In this document: one piece after another, positions 3,798-45,569 of the stretch
How positions within the stretch are numbered: the first letter of the stretch is position 1
Layout of the letters: every line of letters starts with the position of its first letter
Assembly (NCBI GenBank): GCA_028715055.1
Contig: JAQTLE010000001.1
Coordinates: 62,001 to 126,000, forward strand
Source: Sulfurovaceae bacterium
GTDB lineage: Bacteria; Campylobacterota; Campylobacteria; Campylobacterales; Sulfurovaceae
Reading direction: 5' to 3'
DNA: 64,000 nt
Program-made: the position numbers and the translations under genes
Notes under the pieces: generated by a model
Database searches by the model: none
Seen by the model: the letters and a program-made list of their open reading frames with translations, nothing else
What the model was told of the DNA's origin: nothing

Positions 3798-3867
3798 GAA
3801 TGACAAGATATTGTCATTCCGTGCCACGACACGGAATCCATGGATACCGAATCAAGTCCGGTATGAC
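3798..3867. repeat. Dispersed repeat family A, copy 1, preceded by an inverted repeat
   Basis: Positions 3813-3867 match, in inverted orientation, the elements at 37447-37509 and 39214-39276. The shared parts are GTCATTCCGTG at one end and CGGTATGAC at the other, with CCATGGATACCGAATCAAG in the middle. Each half can fold into a hairpin. Just upstream, 3798-3806 and 3811-3819 form a perfect inverted repeat (GAATGACAA / TTGTCATTC, loop GATA). It lies 41 bases past the metE stop. Confidence 0.75.
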
Positions 3868-12070: not shown

Positions 12071-20759
<8,689 letters not shown>

Positions 20760-37446: not shown

Positions 37447-37509
37447 GTCATACCGTACTTGATACGGTATCCATAGATTATCACGAATACTCCGTATTCT
37501 CAGAATGAC
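37447..37509. repeat. Dispersed repeat family A, copy 2
   Basis: This 63-base element starts GTCATACCGTACTTGATACG and ends in AGAATGAC. It matches the element at 39214-39276 in length, ends and orientation. Its first half folds (ATACCGT/ACGGTAT). It starts 8 bases past the leuC stop and could also act as the transcript end of leuC. Confidence 0.75.
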
Positions 37510-37604: not shown

Positions 37605-37613
37605 TGTTATAAT
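37605..37613 (+). promoter_or_regulatory. Extended -10 promoter of the DUF11 surface-protein cluster
   Basis: TGTTATAAT (TGnTATAAT) lies 24 bases before the start codon of the first gene, with the ribosome-binding sequence GAGGG between them. It implies a very short leader. No other comparable -10 box was noted up to 44532. Confidence 0.6.
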
Positions 37614-37636
37614 ATAAAAAACTCGAGGGTTAAAGT

Positions 37637-38599
37637 ATGAAAAACATAGTATTTTCAGCTTTTTTGTGGATGCTTTTTGGGATAACCCTTCTCTTGGCCA
37701 AGGGTGTTTCAGCAGGTACTGAAATTATCAATACAGCTACGCTCGAATATCAAATCAACAGTGTCCAATATAGCGCAACAAGTAATGCTACCCTTGATAA
37801 AGTAGATCAAATCATCGATGTAAGTGTTGTTTGGAATGATACATCCCCGATAATTGTAGCCAGCGGAGAAATTAATCGGGCACTTACATTCAAAATTACC
37901 AACACAGGCAATGGAAACGACACATTTAATCTTACTTATGATATAGCAAATCCTTCTTCCGATTTTATAGTAACTAATCCACGAATTTTCATAGATACCA
38001 ACAATAATGGGGTATTTGATATATCGGTAGATCATGAGGCATATAGCATCACATTGGCAGCCGATGCCTCTTCCACAATTTTTTTAGTTTCAGACATGCC
38101 TACAAGCTCATACATATCCGGAAGCATTTCAAGCAATGCCATAGAAGCCAAATCTACTATTGGTGGCTCCGGAGCCCCAGGAACTATATATCCAGGAAAA
38201 GGTACGAACGGTGTTTTTGCAGTTGATGGGATGAGTGGAGGAGTGAGTAAAGCATGGGGAGAGTATAAGATGAGCAACAACCTTGGAGTTAAACTTACCA
38301 AAAGTGCTACACACAGTGGCACCGAAGTAACTACTGGCACAATTGTGAGTTATAATATAGTTGTAGAACTTCAAGCAAATGGGAGTGCGGACAATCTGAT
38401 CATCACAGATGCCATACCAGTAGGTACTACTTATGTGGCAGGGTCACTAAAGCTTGATAGTGTCAGCTTAACTGATGCAAGTGATAGCGACAGCGGTAAA
38501 TTTACCGGCAGCGGTATAGAAGTAAATTTGGGTACAGTTACGCAAACGACAGGAAATCCGTATATGAAAAATATCTCATTTGAGGTAATGATAAGTTAG
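37637..38599 (+). CDS. Exported DUF11-type Ig-like surface protein (cluster gene 1)
   Basis: This 320-residue protein has a signal peptide (FLWMLFGITLLLAKGVSA, cut near residue 26). An N-terminal strand module follows, GTEIINTATLEYQINSVQYS, which recurs in two other cluster proteins. Next is a beta domain with FIDTNNNGVFD, a DxNxxGxxD loop typical of calcium binding. The C-terminal DUF11-like Ig domain (about 215-320) has LTKSATHSGTEVTTGTIVSY and DAIPVGTTYVAGS. The last strand, ISFEVMIS, ends the protein. No membrane anchor or sorting motif is visible. DUF11 domains are mostly found in large surface or secreted proteins; the function here is unknown. Confidence 0.8.
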   Translation: MKNIVFSAFLWMLFGITLLLAKGVSAGTEIINTATLEYQINSVQYSATSNATLDKVDQIIDVSVVWNDTSPIIVASGEINRALTFKITNTGNGNDTFNLTYDIANPSSDFIVTNPRIFIDTNNNGVFDISVDHEAYSITLAADASSTIFLVSDMPTSSYISGSISSNAIEAKSTIGGSGAPGTIYPGKGTNGVFAVDGMSGGVSKAWGEYKMSNNLGVKLTKSATHSGTEVTTGTIVSYNIVVELQANGSADNLIITDAIPVGTTYVAGSLKLDSVSLTDASDSDSGKFTGSGIEVNLGTVTQTTGNPYMKNISFEVMIS

Positions 38600-38600
38600 G

Positions 38601-38642
38601 CAGTCTCTCCCAGTCTTGTATACAAGATTGCGAGAGGTTGCT
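38601..38642 (+). promoter_or_regulatory. Intergenic hairpin between cluster genes 1 and 2
   Basis: CTCTC and GAGAG flank a palindromic core TCTTGTATACAAGA, so the spacer can form a stem of about 15 pairs. No T-run follows. Such a structure could limit transcript read-through or protect the upstream mRNA. Confidence 0.5.
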
Positions 38643-38698
38643 TAAACAATCTTGCTAGCTATTTGCTAATTAGTTGGTATTTTAAACAAGGAGTAGGA

Positions 38699-39145
38699 AT
38701 GAAAAAAGGCTTTTTATCGGTTTTACTGATCTTTACTTTATCGGCATATGCCAACGTAGAAATCAAATCAGAATCGTTTCAAGAAAAAATCATAAATAAG
38801 CAGAATACATGGGTGAAAGCTGCTAGAGTAATACCCGGAACTAAAGTCAGATATATCAATACCATAAGCAATAATGGAGCTGATACGGCTGAAAATTTAG
38901 TGATCACAAATCCTGTACCAAATCACATGCGATATGTAGAAGGAAGTGCGAAATGTTCAGGAGCATGCATTATCACTTATTCTCTTAATGGCAAGTTTTT
39001 TGATATGCCGGCAAAGCTTTTTATGATAGAAAACGGTCAAAAAAGAGTAGCCAAAGCTACGGAATATAAAGCCATAAGATGGGTTGTGCAAACATTAGGC
39101 GCAAAGCAAAACAGCAGCGTACAATTTGACGCTACTTTAGAATAA
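38699..39145 (+). CDS. Small exported DUF11-like protein (cluster gene 2)
   Basis: This 148-residue protein starts at ATG 38699, which has AAGGAGTAGG upstream (the frame is open to 38663). A signal peptide (KKGFLSVLLIFTLSAYA, cut near 19) leads into a single Ig-like domain. That domain contains IPGTKVRYINTISNNGADTAENLVI and NPVPNHMRYVEGS, the DUF11 pattern of N-x-G followed by a V-P-x-x-x-x-Y-V-x-G-S turn. One close cysteine pair (CSGAC) may form a disulfide. The final strand SSVQFDATLE ends the protein. It may be a minor subunit or adaptor of the cluster. Confidence 0.7.
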   Translation: MKKGFLSVLLIFTLSAYANVEIKSESFQEKIINKQNTWVKAARVIPGTKVRYINTISNNGADTAENLVITNPVPNHMRYVEGSAKCSGACIITYSLNGKFFDMPAKLFMIENGQKRVAKATEYKAIRWVVQTLGAKQNSSVQFDATLE

Positions 39146-39157
39146 AAGAAGGTTTTG

Positions 39158-39300
39158 CAACCCTTGAAGAGAGTTTTTACAGTCATTGTAATGAATGAAG
39201 CAATCTGTTTCTCGTCATACCGAACTTGATTCGGTATCCACTCTTTTATGGATTCCGGCTCAAAGCACGGAATGACTGTAAAAACTCTCTTCAAGGGTTG
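39158..39300. repeat. 143-bp structure bounded by 30-bp perfect inverted repeats
   Basis: Positions 39158-39187 and 39271-39300 are perfect reverse complements over 30 bases, and the pairing continues imperfectly outward (GGTTTTG against AAAGCC). The interior of 83 bases holds most of the family A copy (39214-39276). No coding frame is present. It resembles a miniature inverted-repeat element or a very strong hairpin, in the spacer between cluster genes 2 and 3. Confidence 0.8.
39214..39276. repeat. Dispersed repeat family A, copy 3
   Basis: This 63-base element starts GTCATACCGAACTTGATTCG and ends in CACGGAATGAC, in the same orientation as 37447-37509 and inverted relative to 3813-3867. Its last 6 bases lie inside the right arm of the 30-bp inverted repeat. 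Confidence 0.8.
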
Positions 39301-39342
39301 AAAGCCTAGGCGTCCAAATGGACAAAAACAAAGGAGGATATA

Positions 39343-40407
39343 ATGAAAAAGATTTTAGTCATAGCATCCATGATGCTATTAGGATTCAGTGGGGCATACG
39401 CTGTAGGCACTGTAGCAGGAACACAAGTACAAAATAGTGTTACATTGAATTATACAGTAGGTGGCATAGGTCAAACAGCTATCAATGCAAATGATGGTGC
39501 TGGATTTTTGGTGGACGATAAAGTAGATTTTACAGTTGCAAATAATGATGGTGCCCAAATAACTGTAACACCAGGCAGCACAGGCCAAATTACCAATTGG
39601 ACATTGGCCAATACCGGCAATGCTGCACAATTTTTTAAGCTAGCAGCAACTAACCTGACAGGTGGAGAAATTGTTTATGGCAATGCAGATACAGCCGATA
39701 CAAGTACGCCTTATACTATAACATATAGTACCGATGGAGGAACTACCTATAATCCATATACTCCTGGTACAGCATTCTCGGTGGCAATAGGTGCATCAGT
39801 ACTTATCAGAGTGGCGGCTGATATACCTCTTAGTGTTACAAATGGCCAAGTAATGAACATTCAGTTAGAGGCAACTGCTGCTGTTGATGCTGGAGGTACA
39901 ACATTGACTGCGACAAGCGGTCCTGATAATATAGGAAGTGTTGATATAGTACTAGCAGAAGGTACGGGTATAACTACTCAAGGCAATACTCCATTTGATG
40001 GCAAATTTTCTGCATGGGGCGGATATATAGTTCAATCTGCAGCTTTAGCAGTGACCAAAACTTCATGTGTTATAAGCGATCCTGTAAATGGTACGACTAA
40101 TCCTAAACGTATTCCAGGTGCAGTTCTTCGTTACCAGATACAAGTTGCCAATACAGGTACTTCCGGCGCAACAAGTGTTACCGTAGCAGATGCAATCCCA
40201 ACCGAATTTGGTACTTCTGCCGCAAATCTAGATGTACGATCGGCTGTGTGTCCTGCAATATCTTCCGGTGTGTGTGGTGCCAAAACAGGTACTGTAGAAA
40301 CCAATGCCGGTACTACCGGTGCTGGAACTTCTAGCGTAACGCTTGATTATGCTGCTGTCGCTGCAGGCGACACTAATTGTGGATATATCGAAGTGACGAT
40401 CCAGTAG
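39343..40407 (+). CDS. Exported DUF11-type surface protein with paired cysteines (cluster gene 3)
   Basis: This 354-residue protein starts after AAAGGAGGATATA, the strongest ribosome-binding site of the cluster. A signal peptide (KILVIASMMLLGFSGAYA) is followed by the shared N-terminal module GTVAGTQVQNSVTLNYTV. A Thr/Ala/Gly-rich beta region comes next. The C-terminal DUF11 module begins VTKTSCVISDPVNGTTNPKR and ends CGYIEVTIQ at the stop codon. The same module occurs in cluster gene 5. Four cysteines lie in this module, which suggests disulfides outside the cytoplasm. The strong translation signal and low-complexity make-up suit an abundant structural subunit. Confidence 0.8.
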   Translation: MKKILVIASMMLLGFSGAYAVGTVAGTQVQNSVTLNYTVGGIGQTAINANDGAGFLVDDKVDFTVANNDGAQITVTPGSTGQITNWTLANTGNAAQFFKLAATNLTGGEIVYGNADTADTSTPYTITYSTDGGTTYNPYTPGTAFSVAIGASVLIRVAADIPLSVTNGQVMNIQLEATAAVDAGGTTLTATSGPDNIGSVDIVLAEGTGITTQGNTPFDGKFSAWGGYIVQSAALAVTKTSCVISDPVNGTTNPKRIPGAVLRYQIQVANTGTSGATSVTVADAIPTEFGTSAANLDVRSAVCPAISSGVCGAKTGTVETNAGTTGAGTSSVTLDYAAVAAGDTNCGYIEVTIQ

Positions 40408-40504
40408 CTAAAACCCTTGAGAGATCAAGCGATTTTCCTCCTCTTCTTGTCGGCTTCCAGGCGAGTCGCAAGAGGTTTATGGTCTGTGAAAGCCGTTTAT
40501 GTTG

Positions 40505-40523
40505 ATCACAAAAAGTTTGTGAT
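40505..40523 (+). promoter_or_regulatory. Hairpin covering the start of cluster gene 4
   Basis: ATCACAAA and TTTGTGAT form a perfect 8-bp stem with a 3-base loop, and the right arm includes the first two bases of the ATG at 40522. No good Shine-Dalgarno precedes that ATG. A folded mRNA would hide this start, which suggests low or controlled translation. Confidence 0.5.
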
Positions 40524-43500
40524 GAGCATAAGAGGTTTGTTGCCCACACTTTTATTTGGCACTCTCTTATTCGGTACTTTCTCCTGGGGGGCAAATGTCG
40601 GTGATGTTATCAAAAATACAGCCAATGCCACATATACTGTTAATGGTACGACTAAAAGTGCAGTCTCAAATGAGGTTGACGTCAGGGTCACAGCCCAAGA
40701 ACAAAGCAATATCTGGGTAGAAAAAAGCGTTGATAAATCACTAGTAGGCATCGGCGAGCTGGTCCGCTATACAATCAAAGTACACAATGCCGGCGCCACT
40801 GCGGCCAGTAATGTCACATTATATGACCTTTTACCTCTAGGCGTGAAGTACGAAGCCGGTACATTCAAAGTAAATGGAATGAGCGTTACACCAACCCTGT
40901 CAATTGATGGCACAGAACTCTCAACTACTATATCCACTATAGCGTCACAGGGTCAAGTTGAGATCACATTTATAGCAGTAATAGGTGCCGGTATCGGCAC
41001 TAAAGAAGCGGTAAATCAAGCCTGGGCGATCAATTCATCATTGGTCAAATCAAATATAGCAACTGCCTCATTAATGGTCAAGGAGGAACTATTTCGCTCC
41101 ACAGGAACCATAATAGGCCAAGTATATGACGCACCATATAAAAATGATAAAAAAGGGCATGGCATCGCAGGCGTGAGACTTTATCTGGAGGACGGCACAT
41201 ATGTAATCACAGATAAAGACGGCAAATATCACCTTGAAGGAATCAAAGCAGGCACGCATACAGTGCAGGTGGATGAAGATCTTCTTCCGCGCGGATATGC
41301 TATGGCTCAGTGTCAAGAAAATGCACGATTTGGGAACCGTGCATTTTCTCAGTTTGTGGATCTTGGACAAGGAGCATTAAAGAGAGCAGACTTTTGTCTC
41401 AAGAAAACAGATATGAATGCTACAAACAATACCCAGGAAGTCAAAGAATCAAAAAATCCAAAACCATATGAGATATCTAAGACAGAAGAGAAGATGCCTA
41501 TCTATAATGAAAGCGATCTTCAAATCAATAAAACAGAGATATTGTGGCCGCCGCTAAACTATGTGCCTTCCATACCATCTACTAAAATAGCAGTACGATA
41601 CCCGAAAACTGATAAAGCAGAAGTATGGCTCAATGGTGCAAGAGTAAGTATGCTTAATTATGACGGCAAAAATAGTTCACCGAATCAAAATATGGCAATA
41701 GACATATATAGGGGTGTGGACTTGCTAAACGGCGAGAACAAAATAGAGATAAGACTATATGATATATCAGGCAAAGTTCACGATATCCTCAAAAGAGAGA
41801 TATATGTAGCCAATACACCTGCTAAAATACTATATATGCCCAAACTTTCAAATCCTGTAGCAGACGGTATCAACCCATGTATCATAGCAGTCAAGTTTCT
41901 AGATAGCGCAAATAAACCATTACGACAAGGCATGATGGGAAGTTTTTCGGTTAATGCGCCATATCGTTCTATGAGCAGCATAGAGGAATTCAAAAATAAT
42001 CCGCTTGCCACCCAACAGTCAACCAATGCATATACTGTGGGTCCCGATGGTATAGCATATATTGCATTGCAGCCTACCACGCAAACCGGAGAAGCGACAC
42101 TCAGCTTCAAACTGGAGTACAAAGAAGATAATATCAAAGTATGGCTCAAGCCCAGCATGCGTAAATGGATCATGGTAGGATTTGCAGAGGGAAGTGTAGG
42201 ATACAATACACTTAAAAAACATCAAGAATCATTGCATGATACAAAAGAAGGAGTGGTACAAGAAGGGCAAATTTCATTTTTTGCCAAAGGTAGTATAAAA
42301 GCAAATTGGCTACTTACCATGGCATATGATACCAGCAGAGATACCAAAAATTCTAGATATTTCGGCACTATTGATCCGAATACCTATTATACTATCTACA
42401 ACGACGATACAACACAGGCATATGATGCCGCTAGTCGCAAAAAACTTTATATCAAGCTAGAAAATGATGAATTCAATATCCTCTTTGGAGATTTCAATAC
42501 AGACCTGAGTGCCACAAAGCTCACACAATATACCCGCACATTCACAGGGGTCAAAAGTGAATATAATAGTGAACATTTGGAAGCCAAAACATTTGCTGCT
42601 TATACTGATCAGGTTTTTCAAAGAGATGAATTTAGAGGCGATGGCACATCGGGGTATTATTATCTTAAAAGTAAACCGGTCATAACAAACTCAGAAAAAA
42701 TATCTATTGAAGTCAGAGACAGATATAGAAATGAGATAATTGTGAGCACAAAAGAGCTGCAAAGATTTAGAGATTATGATATAGATTATAATTTAGGCAG
42801 ATTGTATTTCAAAGAACCTGTATATAGCGTGGATGAAAACTTCAACCCTATATACATAGTAGCACAGTATGAAATCGATGGAGATGGCTCAAAACACCTT
42901 ACTTATGGTGGTAGAGGTGCTGTGAAATTGAACGACGGAAACGTAGAAGTAGGCAGTACCTATGTGTCTGAAGATATGGGAACCCAAAAAAACGAGATGA
43001 TGGGTGCAGATACGACGGTTAAGCTTGGGGCAGATACAACGCTTAAAGCCGAGTATGCCAAAAGTAAAACCAACAAAGATGGTGAGGTCATTAGAGGAGA
43101 CGCCAAATTAGCAGAGATAGAACATCTCTCAAACGGGCTTTATACGAGAGGGTATTACAGAGAACAGGATAACTCTTTTGGACTTGGACAACTCTCAAAT
43201 GATTTGAGCGGTACGCGTAAAATAGGTATGGATGCTGTAAAAACATTTGACAATCGTGCCAACTTAAAAGTCACAGCTTATAGAGATACAGATACACTGA
43301 CAGACAAAAATCATGATGTAGCAGAATCGAGACTTCAAATAGACGAAACATTATGGAGCGCTTATTTTGGGTATAGATATGCAGATGCCAGCGATACGGA
43401 CGCGGTCAATCAAATTCTACTAGGAGGTTCATATTCGTTGCTTAACCAAAGACTCAAACTCCTGGTGTCACACGATAGATCACTAGGAGCAAATGAAGAT

Positions 43501-44538
43501 GTGATGTTCCCTACTAAGACGATATTGGGAATTGATTATGCGCTTAATCCATCAGCAGATATATTTGGGTCCTATGAATGGGGGCAAAATGATAACCGAG
43601 ATTATAACGCAGGTCGAGTGGGCACAAGGGTAACACCATGGAGTGGTATGACAGTCGAGAATACAACCTTGAGCGAATCAAAAAACGACACCACTAGATT
43701 ATACAATACTACAGGTTTGCTCCAAAGCTATCAAGTCACTCCAAATATCTGGGTAAGTGGCGGATATGAAAATGGAGTGCTTTTAGATGGCAATGCTACC
43801 AAACAAAATGATAAGTTCGATGCATATAGAGTAGGCGGTGCGTACCGTAATGATCTGTTTTCTGCGATACTTAACGGCGAATACAGAAATGGCACTTTTG
43901 ATAACAAACAAAATGTTTCATTTGGAGTATATACACAGCCTAATGATGATCTAGGACTAGCAGCAAGCAGTTTATATAATTATGAATATGATGATGTAAA
44001 CAGCACAAAAAACATAGATACCAGATTGGCTTTGGCATATAGACCACAACAAACAGACTGGACAGTGTTAAATAAATTAGAATATATCAATACAGATGAA
44101 AAGAGAGATATAGAAAATAAAACCCAAAAACTCATCAATAATATTCAAGCCAATTATAATCCAACTGATGCATTTGAGCTATCATTGCAGTATGGTATAA
44201 AATATGTGTTTGATTCATTAGATGATTACGACCATAAAGGCTGGGTTCATCTAGGAGGTATAGATGCCAGATATGATCTCACAAAAAAGATAGACATAGG
44301 ATTTCAAACCAGTGCTTTATTTGCACAAAGTGCGGGTAATTTTGATTATGGAGCAGGAGTATATGTAGGGTATAATCTAATTGATACCATGTGGCTATCC
44401 CTCGGATATAATTGGGATGGTCTTGGTGATAATGATTTTGATCTGCAAACATATCGCACAGAGGGTCCTTATGTGAAGTTTCGCATGAGGTTCGATCAAA
44501 AAACTTTAGGTGAAACAGCAAAGGCGCTATCATGGTAA
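40522..44538 (+). CDS. Large outer-membrane beta-barrel protein with DUF11 and SdrD-B-like domains (cluster gene 4)
   Basis: This 1338-residue protein starts best at ATG 40522, which gives a signal peptide (SIRGLLPTLLFGTLLFGTFSWGA). In order come the shared N-terminal module (VGDVIKNTANATYTVNGTTK), a DUF11 domain (about residues 55-170), an SdrD-B/Cna-B-like domain (GTIIGQVYDA ... TDKDGKYHLEGIKAGTHTV, about 190-260), and Ig-like and linker regions. A conserved segment has LFGDFNTDLSATKLTQYTRT, RDEFRGDGTSGYYYL and RDYDIDYNLGRLYF. About 500 residues of alternating strands ending in W form the predicted barrel. The last gene overlaps it by 7 bases. It may anchor, export or assemble the smaller DUF11 proteins. 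Alternative starts are a TTG at 40417 and a TTG just downstream with AAGAGG before it. Confidence 0.8.
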   Translation: MSIRGLLPTLLFGTLLFGTFSWGANVGDVIKNTANATYTVNGTTKSAVSNEVDVRVTAQEQSNIWVEKSVDKSLVGIGELVRYTIKVHNAGATAASNVTLYDLLPLGVKYEAGTFKVNGMSVTPTLSIDGTELSTTISTIASQGQVEITFIAVIGAGIGTKEAVNQAWAINSSLVKSNIATASLMVKEELFRSTGTIIGQVYDAPYKNDKKGHGIAGVRLYLEDGTYVITDKDGKYHLEGIKAGTHTVQVDEDLLPRGYAMAQCQENARFGNRAFSQFVDLGQGALKRADFCLKKTDMNATNNTQEVKESKNPKPYEISKTEEKMPIYNESDLQINKTEILWPPLNYVPSIPSTKIAVRYPKTDKAEVWLNGARVSMLNYDGKNSSPNQNMAIDIYRGVDLLNGENKIEIRLYDISGKVHDILKREIYVANTPAKILYMPKLSNPVADGINPCIIAVKFLDSANKPLRQGMMGSFSVNAPYRSMSSIEEFKNNPLATQQSTNAYTVGPDGIAYIALQPTTQTGEATLSFKLEYKEDNIKVWLKPSMRKWIMVGFAEGSVGYNTLKKHQESLHDTKEGVVQEGQISFFAKGSIKANWLLTMAYDTSRDTKNSRYFGTIDPNTYYTIYNDDTTQAYDAASRKKLYIKLENDEFNILFGDFNTDLSATKLTQYTRTFTGVKSEYNSEHLEAKTFAAYTDQVFQRDEFRGDGTSGYYYLKSKPVITNSEKISIEVRDRYRNEIIVSTKELQRFRDYDIDYNLGRLYFKEPVYSVDENFNPIYIVAQYEIDGDGSKHLTYGGRGAVKLNDGNVEVGSTYVSEDMGTQKNEMMGADTTVKLGADTTLKAEYAKSKTNKDGEVIRGDAKLAEIEHLSNGLYTRGYYREQDNSFGLGQLSNDLSGTRKIGMDAVKTFDNRANLKVTAYRDTDTLTDKNHDVAESRLQIDETLWSAYFGYRYADASDTDAVNQILLGGSYSLLNQRLKLLVSHDRSLGANEDVMFPTKTILGIDYALNPSADIFGSYEWGQNDNRDYNAGRVGTRVTPWSGMTVENTTLSESKNDTTRLYNTTGLLQSYQVTPNIWVSGGYENGVLLDGNATKQNDKFDAYRVGGAYRNDLFSAILNGEYRNGTFDNKQNVSFGVYTQPNDDLGLAASSLYNYEYDDVNSTKNIDTRLALAYRPQQTDWTVLNKLEYINTDEKRDIENKTQKLINNIQANYNPTDAFELSLQYGIKYVFDSLDDYDHKGWVHLGGIDARYDLTKKIDIGFQTSALFAQSAGNFDYGAGVYVGYNLIDTMWLSLGYNWDGLGDNDFDLQTYRTEGPYVKFRMRFDQKTLGETAKALSW

Positions 44539-45569
44539 TAAAAATTATTTTGATCTGGATGGTATTGTTTGCCAATAGTTATGCGGCTTTGCAATATCTG
44601 ACACGCACTACTCCAACGGCAACCGCGCTTGATTCTACAAGTGGAGCAACAACATGGAGTAATCCCCCGGATGACGGATCATTGCTGGTAAATATAGGTT
44701 TTAGCTTTCCTTTTAATGGTACGACATATACTCAAGTAAGAATCACTACCAATGGTATGCTTAATTTTGGAGCATCGTACACATCTGGAGCAAACGCTGC
44801 TCTTCCAAATACAAATGCCGCAGCCGCTCAGAGTCTTTACCCATATTGGGATAATTTGGATCCAAATGCGCTAATAAACTTAGGAGGAAGCGGATCAATT
44901 AAATATCAAACATTAGGCAGCGGTGACAGCCAAAGATTTGTAGTTACATATACAACCATTCCTAAATGTGCGCTTTATGTGTTAGGCCTATGCGTTACAA
45001 ATGGCGGTAATTTTTCATTTCAAGCAGTACTGTACAAAAACGGCGATATCAGGTTTCGCTATCCCAATACAGGATCAAATGATGCTAATGGCGCAAGTGC
45101 TACTATAGGCGCACAAGAAAATACGACTTATTATGATCAGTTTTCAAACAATACAGTCTCAATAAATCAGACATTTGATATATTGTATTCATATTTGCCT
45201 TCTATATCGGTTTCTAAAACTTCTTGTGTTATCTACGATCCGGTTAACAACATTACCAACCCAAAACGCATCCCCGGAGGTACCATACGCTACGCAATAC
45301 AAGTAAGCAATAGCACATATGGAACGGCCTCAAATGTATTTGCTACTGATACAGTGGACAGCGGCAAGCTTGATACTAGTACGATCAAATATCTGCAGAT
45401 ACAAAGCGGGGCATGCAATTGCACAGGAGTGAGCAGTGCAAATAATAATGGCCCTGGAGGATCAGCAGATGGTGTAAATCCTGTTATTTTGGACTATGGG
45501 AGTATAACAGGCGTAGTAGGAGGTGTTCCTGTACAGAAGTGCGGGTATTTTGAGGTGAATGTAAAGTGA
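44532..45569 (+). CDS. Exported protein with nidogen-like jelly-roll region and cysteine DUF11 module (cluster gene 5)
   Basis: This 345-residue protein starts within the end of cluster gene 4 (7-base overlap), so translation is coupled. A signal peptide (VIKIILIWMVLFANSYA) leads into a jelly-roll-like domain of about 190 residues: TTNGMLNFGA, LYPYWDNLDP, RFVVTYTTIP, FQAVLYKNGDIRFRY and GASATIGAQEN. This is the pattern seen in nidogen-like and similar extracellular domains. The C-terminal module, VSKTSCVIYDPVNNITNPKR to CGYFEVNVK at the stop, is closely similar to the end of cluster gene 3. It could be a tip or adhesive component of the system; this is an inference from the architecture. Confidence 0.75.
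   Translation: MVIKIILIWMVLFANSYAALQYLTRTTPTATALDSTSGATTWSNPPDDGSLLVNIGFSFPFNGTTYTQVRITTNGMLNFGASYTSGANAALPNTNAAAAQSLYPYWDNLDPNALINLGGSGSIKYQTLGSGDSQRFVVTYTTIPKCALYVLGLCVTNGGNFSFQAVLYKNGDIRFRYPNTGSNDANGASATIGAQENTTYYDQFSNNTVSINQTFDILYSYLPSISVSKTSCVIYDPVNNITNPKRIPGGTIRYAIQVSNSTYGTASNVFATDTVDSGKLDTSTIKYLQIQSGACNCTGVSSANNNGPGGSADGVNPVILDYGSITGVVGGVPVQKCGYFEVNVK

Follow-up and report, generated by a model that had tools for sequence, protein, structure and literature searches.

What do five adjacent genes that encode only exported, beta-rich proteins build together? The genes, P1 to P5, lie at positions 37637-45569 of the window, the whole 64,000-nt stretch of DNA analysed here from a Sulfurovaceae bacterium (a Sulfurovum-like organism), see Table 1. 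An initial annotation had listed five consecutive same-strand genes for exported beta-rich proteins of 320, 148, 354, 1338 and 345 amino acids (aa), the last two overlapping by 7 bases. The open reading frames (ORFs) are present, Sec-type signal peptides can be recognised by eye at all five N-termini, and both the sizes and the overlap of exactly 7 bases (44532-44538) are reproduced. What that annotation overlooked is that the DUF11 domain is split: the small proteins end without its Asn-bearing tail, and P1, P3 and P4 carry this tail at their mature N-termini. We consider it likely that P1-P5 encode a surface fibre, anchored in the outer membrane, whose subunits exchange donor strands of a split DUF11 (CLIPPER, CnaA-like) domain and are probably cross-linked by Lys-Asn bonds.

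A DUF11 domain split between chain ends

DUF11/TIGR01451 matches exceed the curated NCBIfam cut-off in P1, P2, P3 and P4, and those of P1-P3 agree with the DUF11 type first assigned to them; in P5, which had been grouped with them, the match is sub-threshold. All DUF11 domains detected in the genome are inside the cluster. In complete domains, of which P4 contains one, an Asn-bearing strand is followed by the last strand. The C-terminal DUF11 of P1, P2, P3 and P5 stops before the Asn column in 26/28, 49/49, 47/50 and 14/14 proteins, respectively, and we call such an incomplete domain an acceptor. Nearly all internal DUF11 domains of long acceptor-only relatives have the tail, while the C-terminal one is without it; for example, a 1590-aa acceptor-only protein (locus L081) keeps the tail in 8/8 internal domains. 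Mature P1 (GTEIINTATLEY), P3 (GTQVQNSVTLNY) and P4 (GDVIKNTANATY) have at their N-termini the tail that the acceptors lack, here called the donor.

A hidden Markov model (HMM) of the donor, built from the N-termini of P1 and P3 alone, matches 40 P4 N-termini. By class, it finds 27/31 P1, 40/52 P3, 1/49 P2 and 0/14 P5 proteins, and none of the 473 unrelated, non-adjacent ORFs at the same loci. In a small control, made with Campylobacterota DUF11 domains located outside full P4 clusters, few domains scored; it gave no donor matches and carries little weight. The donor Asn is most often located exactly 10 residues past the AxA cleavage motif (32/66), and when the donor profile is compared with the DUF11 profile the two align exactly at the tail Asn (P 0.019). 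At the other chain end, the companions of P4 finish in a similar strand, [FY]xVxV[KN], without any further tail; the C-end acceptor pattern occurs in 46/790 non-DUF11 ORFs. Over 81 loci we count 77 proteins with donor and acceptor, 49 small and 37 large acceptor-only proteins, and 47 donor-only proteins. Judged from the sequences, a chain made up of a tip, stalk subunits and an anchor would require these classes.

The residues of a possible isopeptide bond are divided in the same way. In the solved CLIPPER (DUF11) domain, a bond joins Lys715 to Asn806 beside Asp748, and the last strand follows the Asn (PMC12617251). The complete DUF11 of P4 has such a Lys-Asp-Asn triad within one domain, with hand-counted spacings of 34 (Lys-Asp) and 63 (Asp-Asn) residues compared with 33 and 58 in the solved domain. 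In P1 and P3 the triad is split, Lys and Asp being in the C-terminal acceptor and Asn in the N-terminal donor. Asn32, Lys222 and Asp258 are each present in 22/22 P1 proteins; in a diverse set of 34 P3 proteins, all have Lys239 and Asp283, and 33 have Asn31. The P5-type acceptors retain Lys and Asp, whereas P2 has no Lys and its Asp position is mostly Asn.

The barrel protein P4 and the spread of the cluster

The DUF11 and barrel regions that had been assigned to P4 are borne out by a domain match and by AlphaFold2, respectively; the SdrD-B-like region is only sub-threshold in Pfam. We modelled residues 312-1338 with AlphaFold2 using 60 homologues, and the model has a predicted local distance difference test (pLDDT) score of 86.2 and a predicted template modelling (TM) score of 0.81. 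It consists of two Ig-like domains followed by a run of beta-strands, where the count of about 38-40 was taken from the DSSP string, and a conserved folded insert is placed after approximately the eighth strand. The insert may act as a plug. In P4 homologues the Ig-like region also gives Invasin_D3/Big_1 matches. Foldseek returns mostly outer-membrane barrels (Deinococcus SlpA, SprA, LptD, PapC, FimD) at TM-scores no higher than about 0.3, and GH2/invasin-like Ig domains are the only matches of the sequence profile in PDB. We therefore reject homology of P4 to ushers or to SprA.

In five P4 homologues from other phyla (L052, L054, L057, L063, L071), an OmpA peptidoglycan-binding domain separates the SdrD_B-like domain from the barrel; it is absent from the homologue at L046 and from P4 of the window. 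Because of its position, the region ahead of the barrel should be periplasmic at least in the OmpA-bearing homologues. In cyanobacteria (L100-L118), P4 is divided over two adjacent genes, one for the N-terminal part (DUF11 and SdrD_B) and one for the barrel, and the loci encode a stalk-like subunit of about 800-880 aa.

All five genes are found in unchanged order in three congeners (L029, L030, L031), so that the cluster is kept as a unit, and partial sets are present in more distant Campylobacterota. Chance ORFs are untenable because of this conservation in relatives. The cluster is located between leuC and an MFS transporter gene in two congeners and at another place in a third (G010). The leuC and MFS genes abut directly in the sister genomes G001, G003 and G009 and at the leuC site of G010, and therefore movement or loss affects the cluster as a whole. 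We reject chance clustering on the grounds of synteny, of the relocation and of the empty site. The P3 gene of L030 (7490-8548) is only 43% identical to that of the window (39343-40407), while its neighbours still reach 72-82%, which suggests that an exposed subunit is changing fast or has been replaced.

Co-occurrence of P4 with small DUF11 genes, which had been proposed as a check within Campylobacterota, holds there and beyond, and the original framing was too narrow. P4 relatives with DUF11 neighbours are found in Campylobacterota, in alpha-, beta-, gamma- and deltaproteobacteria, Nitrospirota, Ignavibacteria, Latescibacterota, Cetobacterium and cyanobacteria; a system limited to Campylobacterota is ruled out by the relatives in other phyla. 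The barrel region is 32-57% identical in other Campylobacterota and about 22% in the most distant relatives. Among the 55 loci where the sequence extends 4 kb or more upstream of P4, relatives of P2, P3 and P1 are present in 44, 33 and 28, respectively. Plasmid-borne copies exist, for instance in Acinetobacter haemolyticus, where the version on a mobilizable plasmid (L167, 3860-16225) has an extra OmpA-family gene after P4. One genome (L036 and L037) has another P4-like barrel gene (1169 aa), only distantly related, which comes after a gene for a surface-protein-like product of 3100 aa (L037, 71-12879).

The N-terminal heads of P5-type proteins are variable (PA14/GLEYA, NIDO, CBM-like, beta-helix, MAM-like) and often resemble carbohydrate-binding domains, and the C-terminal 120 residues are strongly conserved in Campylobacterota. 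For P5 of the window, the jelly-roll reading has its basis in a weak NIDO match (E 0.017). By their domain make-up, P5-type proteins are candidate tip adhesins.

The proposed fibre and its alternatives

Beside the split-domain grammar, the conserved residues, the predicted barrel and the gene conservation, which sequence comparison and modelling bring out, we infer physical strand exchange, a covalent bond, an export route, an orientation and adhesion. P1 and P3 would join head to tail, the N-terminal tail hairpin of one subunit completing the C-terminal DUF11 of the next, since their acceptor ends lack the tail that their N-termini carry. P5 would be placed at the tip because it has an acceptor and no donor, and its head is adhesin-like; P3 and P1 would form the stalk and adaptor. 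As P4 carries a donor but lacks an open acceptor, it would end the chain at the cell, its hairpin completing the last subunit and its barrel anchoring the fibre. The size of the barrel and the plug-like insert suggest that export probably occurs through P4. Since the acceptor supplies Lys and the catalytic Asp and the donor supplies Asn, we predict that a Lys-Asn isopeptide bond forms autocatalytically at each joint and locks it, which would make the pair a natural equivalent of SpyTag/SpyCatcher. P2, an acceptor without Lys and Asp, may be a reversible partner or chaperone that protects donors, or it may cap the fibre. The role of P4 as anchor, exporter or platform, first proposed from the gene content, is now better supported, since we confirm a barrel, small proteins that are exported and conservation as a unit. 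None of the three outcomes named at first as refuting the idea (genes not kept together in relatives, no predicted barrel, small proteins in the cytoplasm) was observed, the last being judged from the signal peptides.

The same strand exchange could operate with non-covalent joints, as in chaperone-usher pili, leaving the triad as a remnant. P2 and the cyanobacterial acceptors without Lys indicate that some lineages manage without this residue, and isopeptide bonds are lacking in many DUF11 domains (PMC12617251). A remnant would drift, however, while Lys, Asp and Asn are invariant or nearly so at opposite chain ends of P1 and P3, and we regard a non-covalent fibre as unlikely. We judge it very unlikely that the hairpin of P1 and P3 completes the C-terminal domain of its own chain, so that P4 would display or secrete closed monomers and no fibre would form. 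The AlphaFold2 model of single P3 (pLDDT 85) does place residues 21-60 confidently, and it may be that the hairpin docks intramolecularly. AlphaFold2 tends toward such self-docking with true strand-exchange pilins as well, and the pairing must be between chains for the donor-only P4 and the acceptor-only P2 and P5.

Could P4 instead be a secretion channel, SprA-like or two-partner-like, for soluble DUF11 adhesins that do not polymerise? All companions share the end strand, which would then be a sorting signal, the barrel is large, and SprA is among the weak fold matches. A simple C-terminal sorting signal is rejected, as it leaves the N-terminal donor hairpins of P1, P3 and P4 and their invariant Asn unexplained; moreover, no domains of the type 9 secretion system (T9SS) C-terminal domain (CTD) type or of the two-partner secretion type are seen in the cluster proteins. 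A channel of this kind is in our view quite improbable. DUF11 is also a generic stalk domain (PMC12617251), and P4 relatives are annotated in public databases as 'DUF11 domain-containing' or 'TonB-dependent receptor'. Both facts would suit a set of ordinary, separate fibrillar adhesins, clustered by co-regulation, with a porin- or receptor-like P4. The fixed gene grammar across phyla, the transfer as a unit and the split domain make this reading hardly credible.

Beside the acceptors without Lys and the confidently placed hairpin, several observations weigh against the covalent fibre anchored by P4. No dedicated chaperone gene is found among the cluster proteins by Pfam, and the neighbourhoods of relatives hold only DUF11-type partners. 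The fold matches of the barrel are generic, with TM-scores mostly <0.3. The OmpA-bearing homologues of P4 point to a periplasmic N-terminal arm, from which the path of the fibre base to the outside is not obvious. When acceptor and donor are rejoined in silico, the DUF11 score of P1 clearly rises (median about 2-5.5 bits, against 0.3 with shuffled donors), that of P3 rises weakly and that of P5 does not rise, and two acceptor/donor pairs of the window gave no gain in Pfam score. The rejoined-domain scoring is mixed and we treat it as weak evidence. Searches of PDB sequences with P2 and with the P3 profile gave no matches, and the only Foldseek matches to P3 were generic proteins with many Ig domains, integrins among them, which is uninformative.

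Known systems, significance and gene layout

Chaperone-usher pili (FimD/PapC) are alike in combining an outer-membrane barrel with Ig-like subunits, and likewise have an N-terminal donor strand and an incomplete C-terminal Ig domain, here analogous by sequence. The cluster also has analogues of the two-domain, donor-less tip adhesin and of the plug-like insert among the early barrel strands. It differs in the DUF11 fold, in the donor on P4 itself, in a barrel far above 24 strands and in the predicted isopeptide joints. The usher family (PF00577) gives no match in Pfam or in the PDB profile search, the Foldseek TM-score to PapC/FimD is at most 0.28, and Pfam detects no PapD-like chaperone among the cluster proteins, P2 included. 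P1-P5 would thus work like chaperone-usher fibres but fall outside that family. Type V pili (FimA/Mfa) of Bacteroidota are alike as strand-exchange fibres without a chaperone-usher pair, and we know of no barrel in their gene cluster. They differ in their lipoprotein precursors and protease-triggered exchange (PMC9715654).

Head-to-tail donor-strand complementation with proposed inter-subunit isopeptide bonds is shared with the archaeal thread (Saci_0406), where Asn57 is bonded to the amine at the N-terminus of subunit n+2, in contrast to the Lys-Asn bond proposed here; no DUF11 is mentioned for the thread and there is no outer membrane or barrel (PMC9715654). The fibrillar adhesins with CLIPPER/DUF11 domains have the same domain and the same Lys-Asp-Asn triad, are Gram-negative and anchored by OmpA, but form the bond within one chain of tandem repeats (PMC12617251), whereas here the domain is split between chains. 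In the grappling hooks (GhlA), DUF11 beads form surface filaments, but as one giant chain and not as a polymer of small subunits (PMC13319060). SprA, the type 9 translocon, is alike as a very large single-chain outer-membrane barrel and gives a weak fold match; P4 has no sequence match to it in the PDB profile search, and neither a T9SS CTD nor T9SS partners are seen in the cluster. Sortase-assembled pili do not fit, as the chains stop at the beta-strand with no LPXTG-type end and no sortase-like partner recurs in the neighbourhoods of relatives. For type V secretion, there is no autotransporter match in Pfam, and the barrel has about 38-40 predicted strands compared with 12 in the translocator.

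In the open-access literature we found no published link between DUF11 and donor strands in a fibre system, in agreement with the initial annotation, which knew of no described Gram-negative system of this composition. We file P1-P5 as a new variation of the strand-exchange fibre, outside every named family; what appears to be new is the division of the DUF11 (CLIPPER) domain and its isopeptide residues between proteins. A wider reading is put forward tentatively: a widespread, undescribed Gram-negative pathway whose subunits complete one another's split CnaA-like domain and seal it by an autocatalytic Lys-Asn isopeptide bond, with assembly and export via a very large single-chain outer-membrane barrel and with P4 as the last covalent link. 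If the proposed fibre is real, many Gram-negative phyla would have a further surface-fibre pathway, hidden by the public annotation given above, with natural, enzyme-free covalent polymerisation. It would also account for clusters of small exported DUF11 proteins, offer pre-split ligation pairs for protein engineering and open the function of a conserved family of very large barrels to direct tests.

Table 1. Features of the P1-P5 cluster, with positions in the window.
Feature	Position	Strand	Remarks
Extended -10 element TGtTATAAT	37605-37613	+	upstream of P1; candidate promoter, by eye
P1 gene	37637-38599	+	320 aa; donor + acceptor subunit
P1 mature N-terminal donor hairpin GTEIINTATLEY	37715-37807	+	Asn32 codon 37730-37732; donor HMM, conservation
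P1 C-terminal incomplete DUF11 (acceptor)	38276-38596	+	Lys222, Asp258; ends ...ISFEVMIS
P2 gene	38699-39145	+	148 aa from ATG; small single incomplete DUF11, acceptor only, without isopeptide Lys/Asp
REP-like palindrome	39217-39239	+	in P2-P3 gap
P3 gene	39343-40407	+	354 aa; donor + acceptor, probable repeating stalk subunit
P3 mature N-terminal donor hairpin VGTVAGTQVQNSVTLNY	39403-39513	+	Asn31 codon 39433-39435; donor HMM
P3 C-terminal incomplete DUF11 (acceptor)	40042-40404	+	Lys239, Asp283; ends ...CGYIEVTIQ
P4 gene	40522-44538	+	1338 aa from ATG; outer-membrane barrel protein, donor only
P4 mature N-terminal donor hairpin ANVGDVIKNTANATY	40591-40692	+	found by HMM built only from P1/P3 N-termini
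P4 complete DUF11 (CLIPPER) domain	40714-41091	+	own Lys-Asp-Asn triad and tail; E 2e-10
P4 SdrD_B / CarboxypepD_reg-like domain	41134-41316	+	sub-threshold in Pfam
P4 two Ig-like domains	41584-42114	+	kin to GH2 beta-galactosidase C-terminal domains and invasin; E 1e-9
P4 outer-membrane beta-barrel	42169-44496	+	about 38-40 predicted strands; AlphaFold2, Foldseek
P4 most conserved stretch (IEVRDRxRxE...DYxIDYxxG)	42637-42849	+	folded insert between barrel strands, plug-like
P5 gene	44532-45569	+	345 aa; acceptor only, variable N-terminal domain, candidate tip adhesin
P5 C-terminal incomplete DUF11 (acceptor)	45201-45566	+	Lys and Asp kept; ends CGYFEVNVK

The single extended -10 promoter that had been proposed for the cluster is present as a motif, but a promoter scan upstream of P1 gives a signal not much above shuffles. 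A single transcript for P1-P5 is plausible; we hold this reading back because of the promoter scan and of a palindromic repeat in the 197-bp spacing between P2 and P3. The repeat, a repetitive extragenic palindromic (REP)-like sequence (ATACCGnACTTGATnCGGTATCC), has three copies in the window, at 3842-3864 (-), 37450-37472 (+) and 39217-39239 (+), with 0 expected by shuffling, and two of the three flank P1-P2. For P2, an alternative TTG start gives a 160-aa reading. Elsewhere in the window (12074-20759), two adjacent, very long ORFs of rpoB/rpoC size overlap by 50 bases in different frames; rpoB and rpoC are fused in some relatives.

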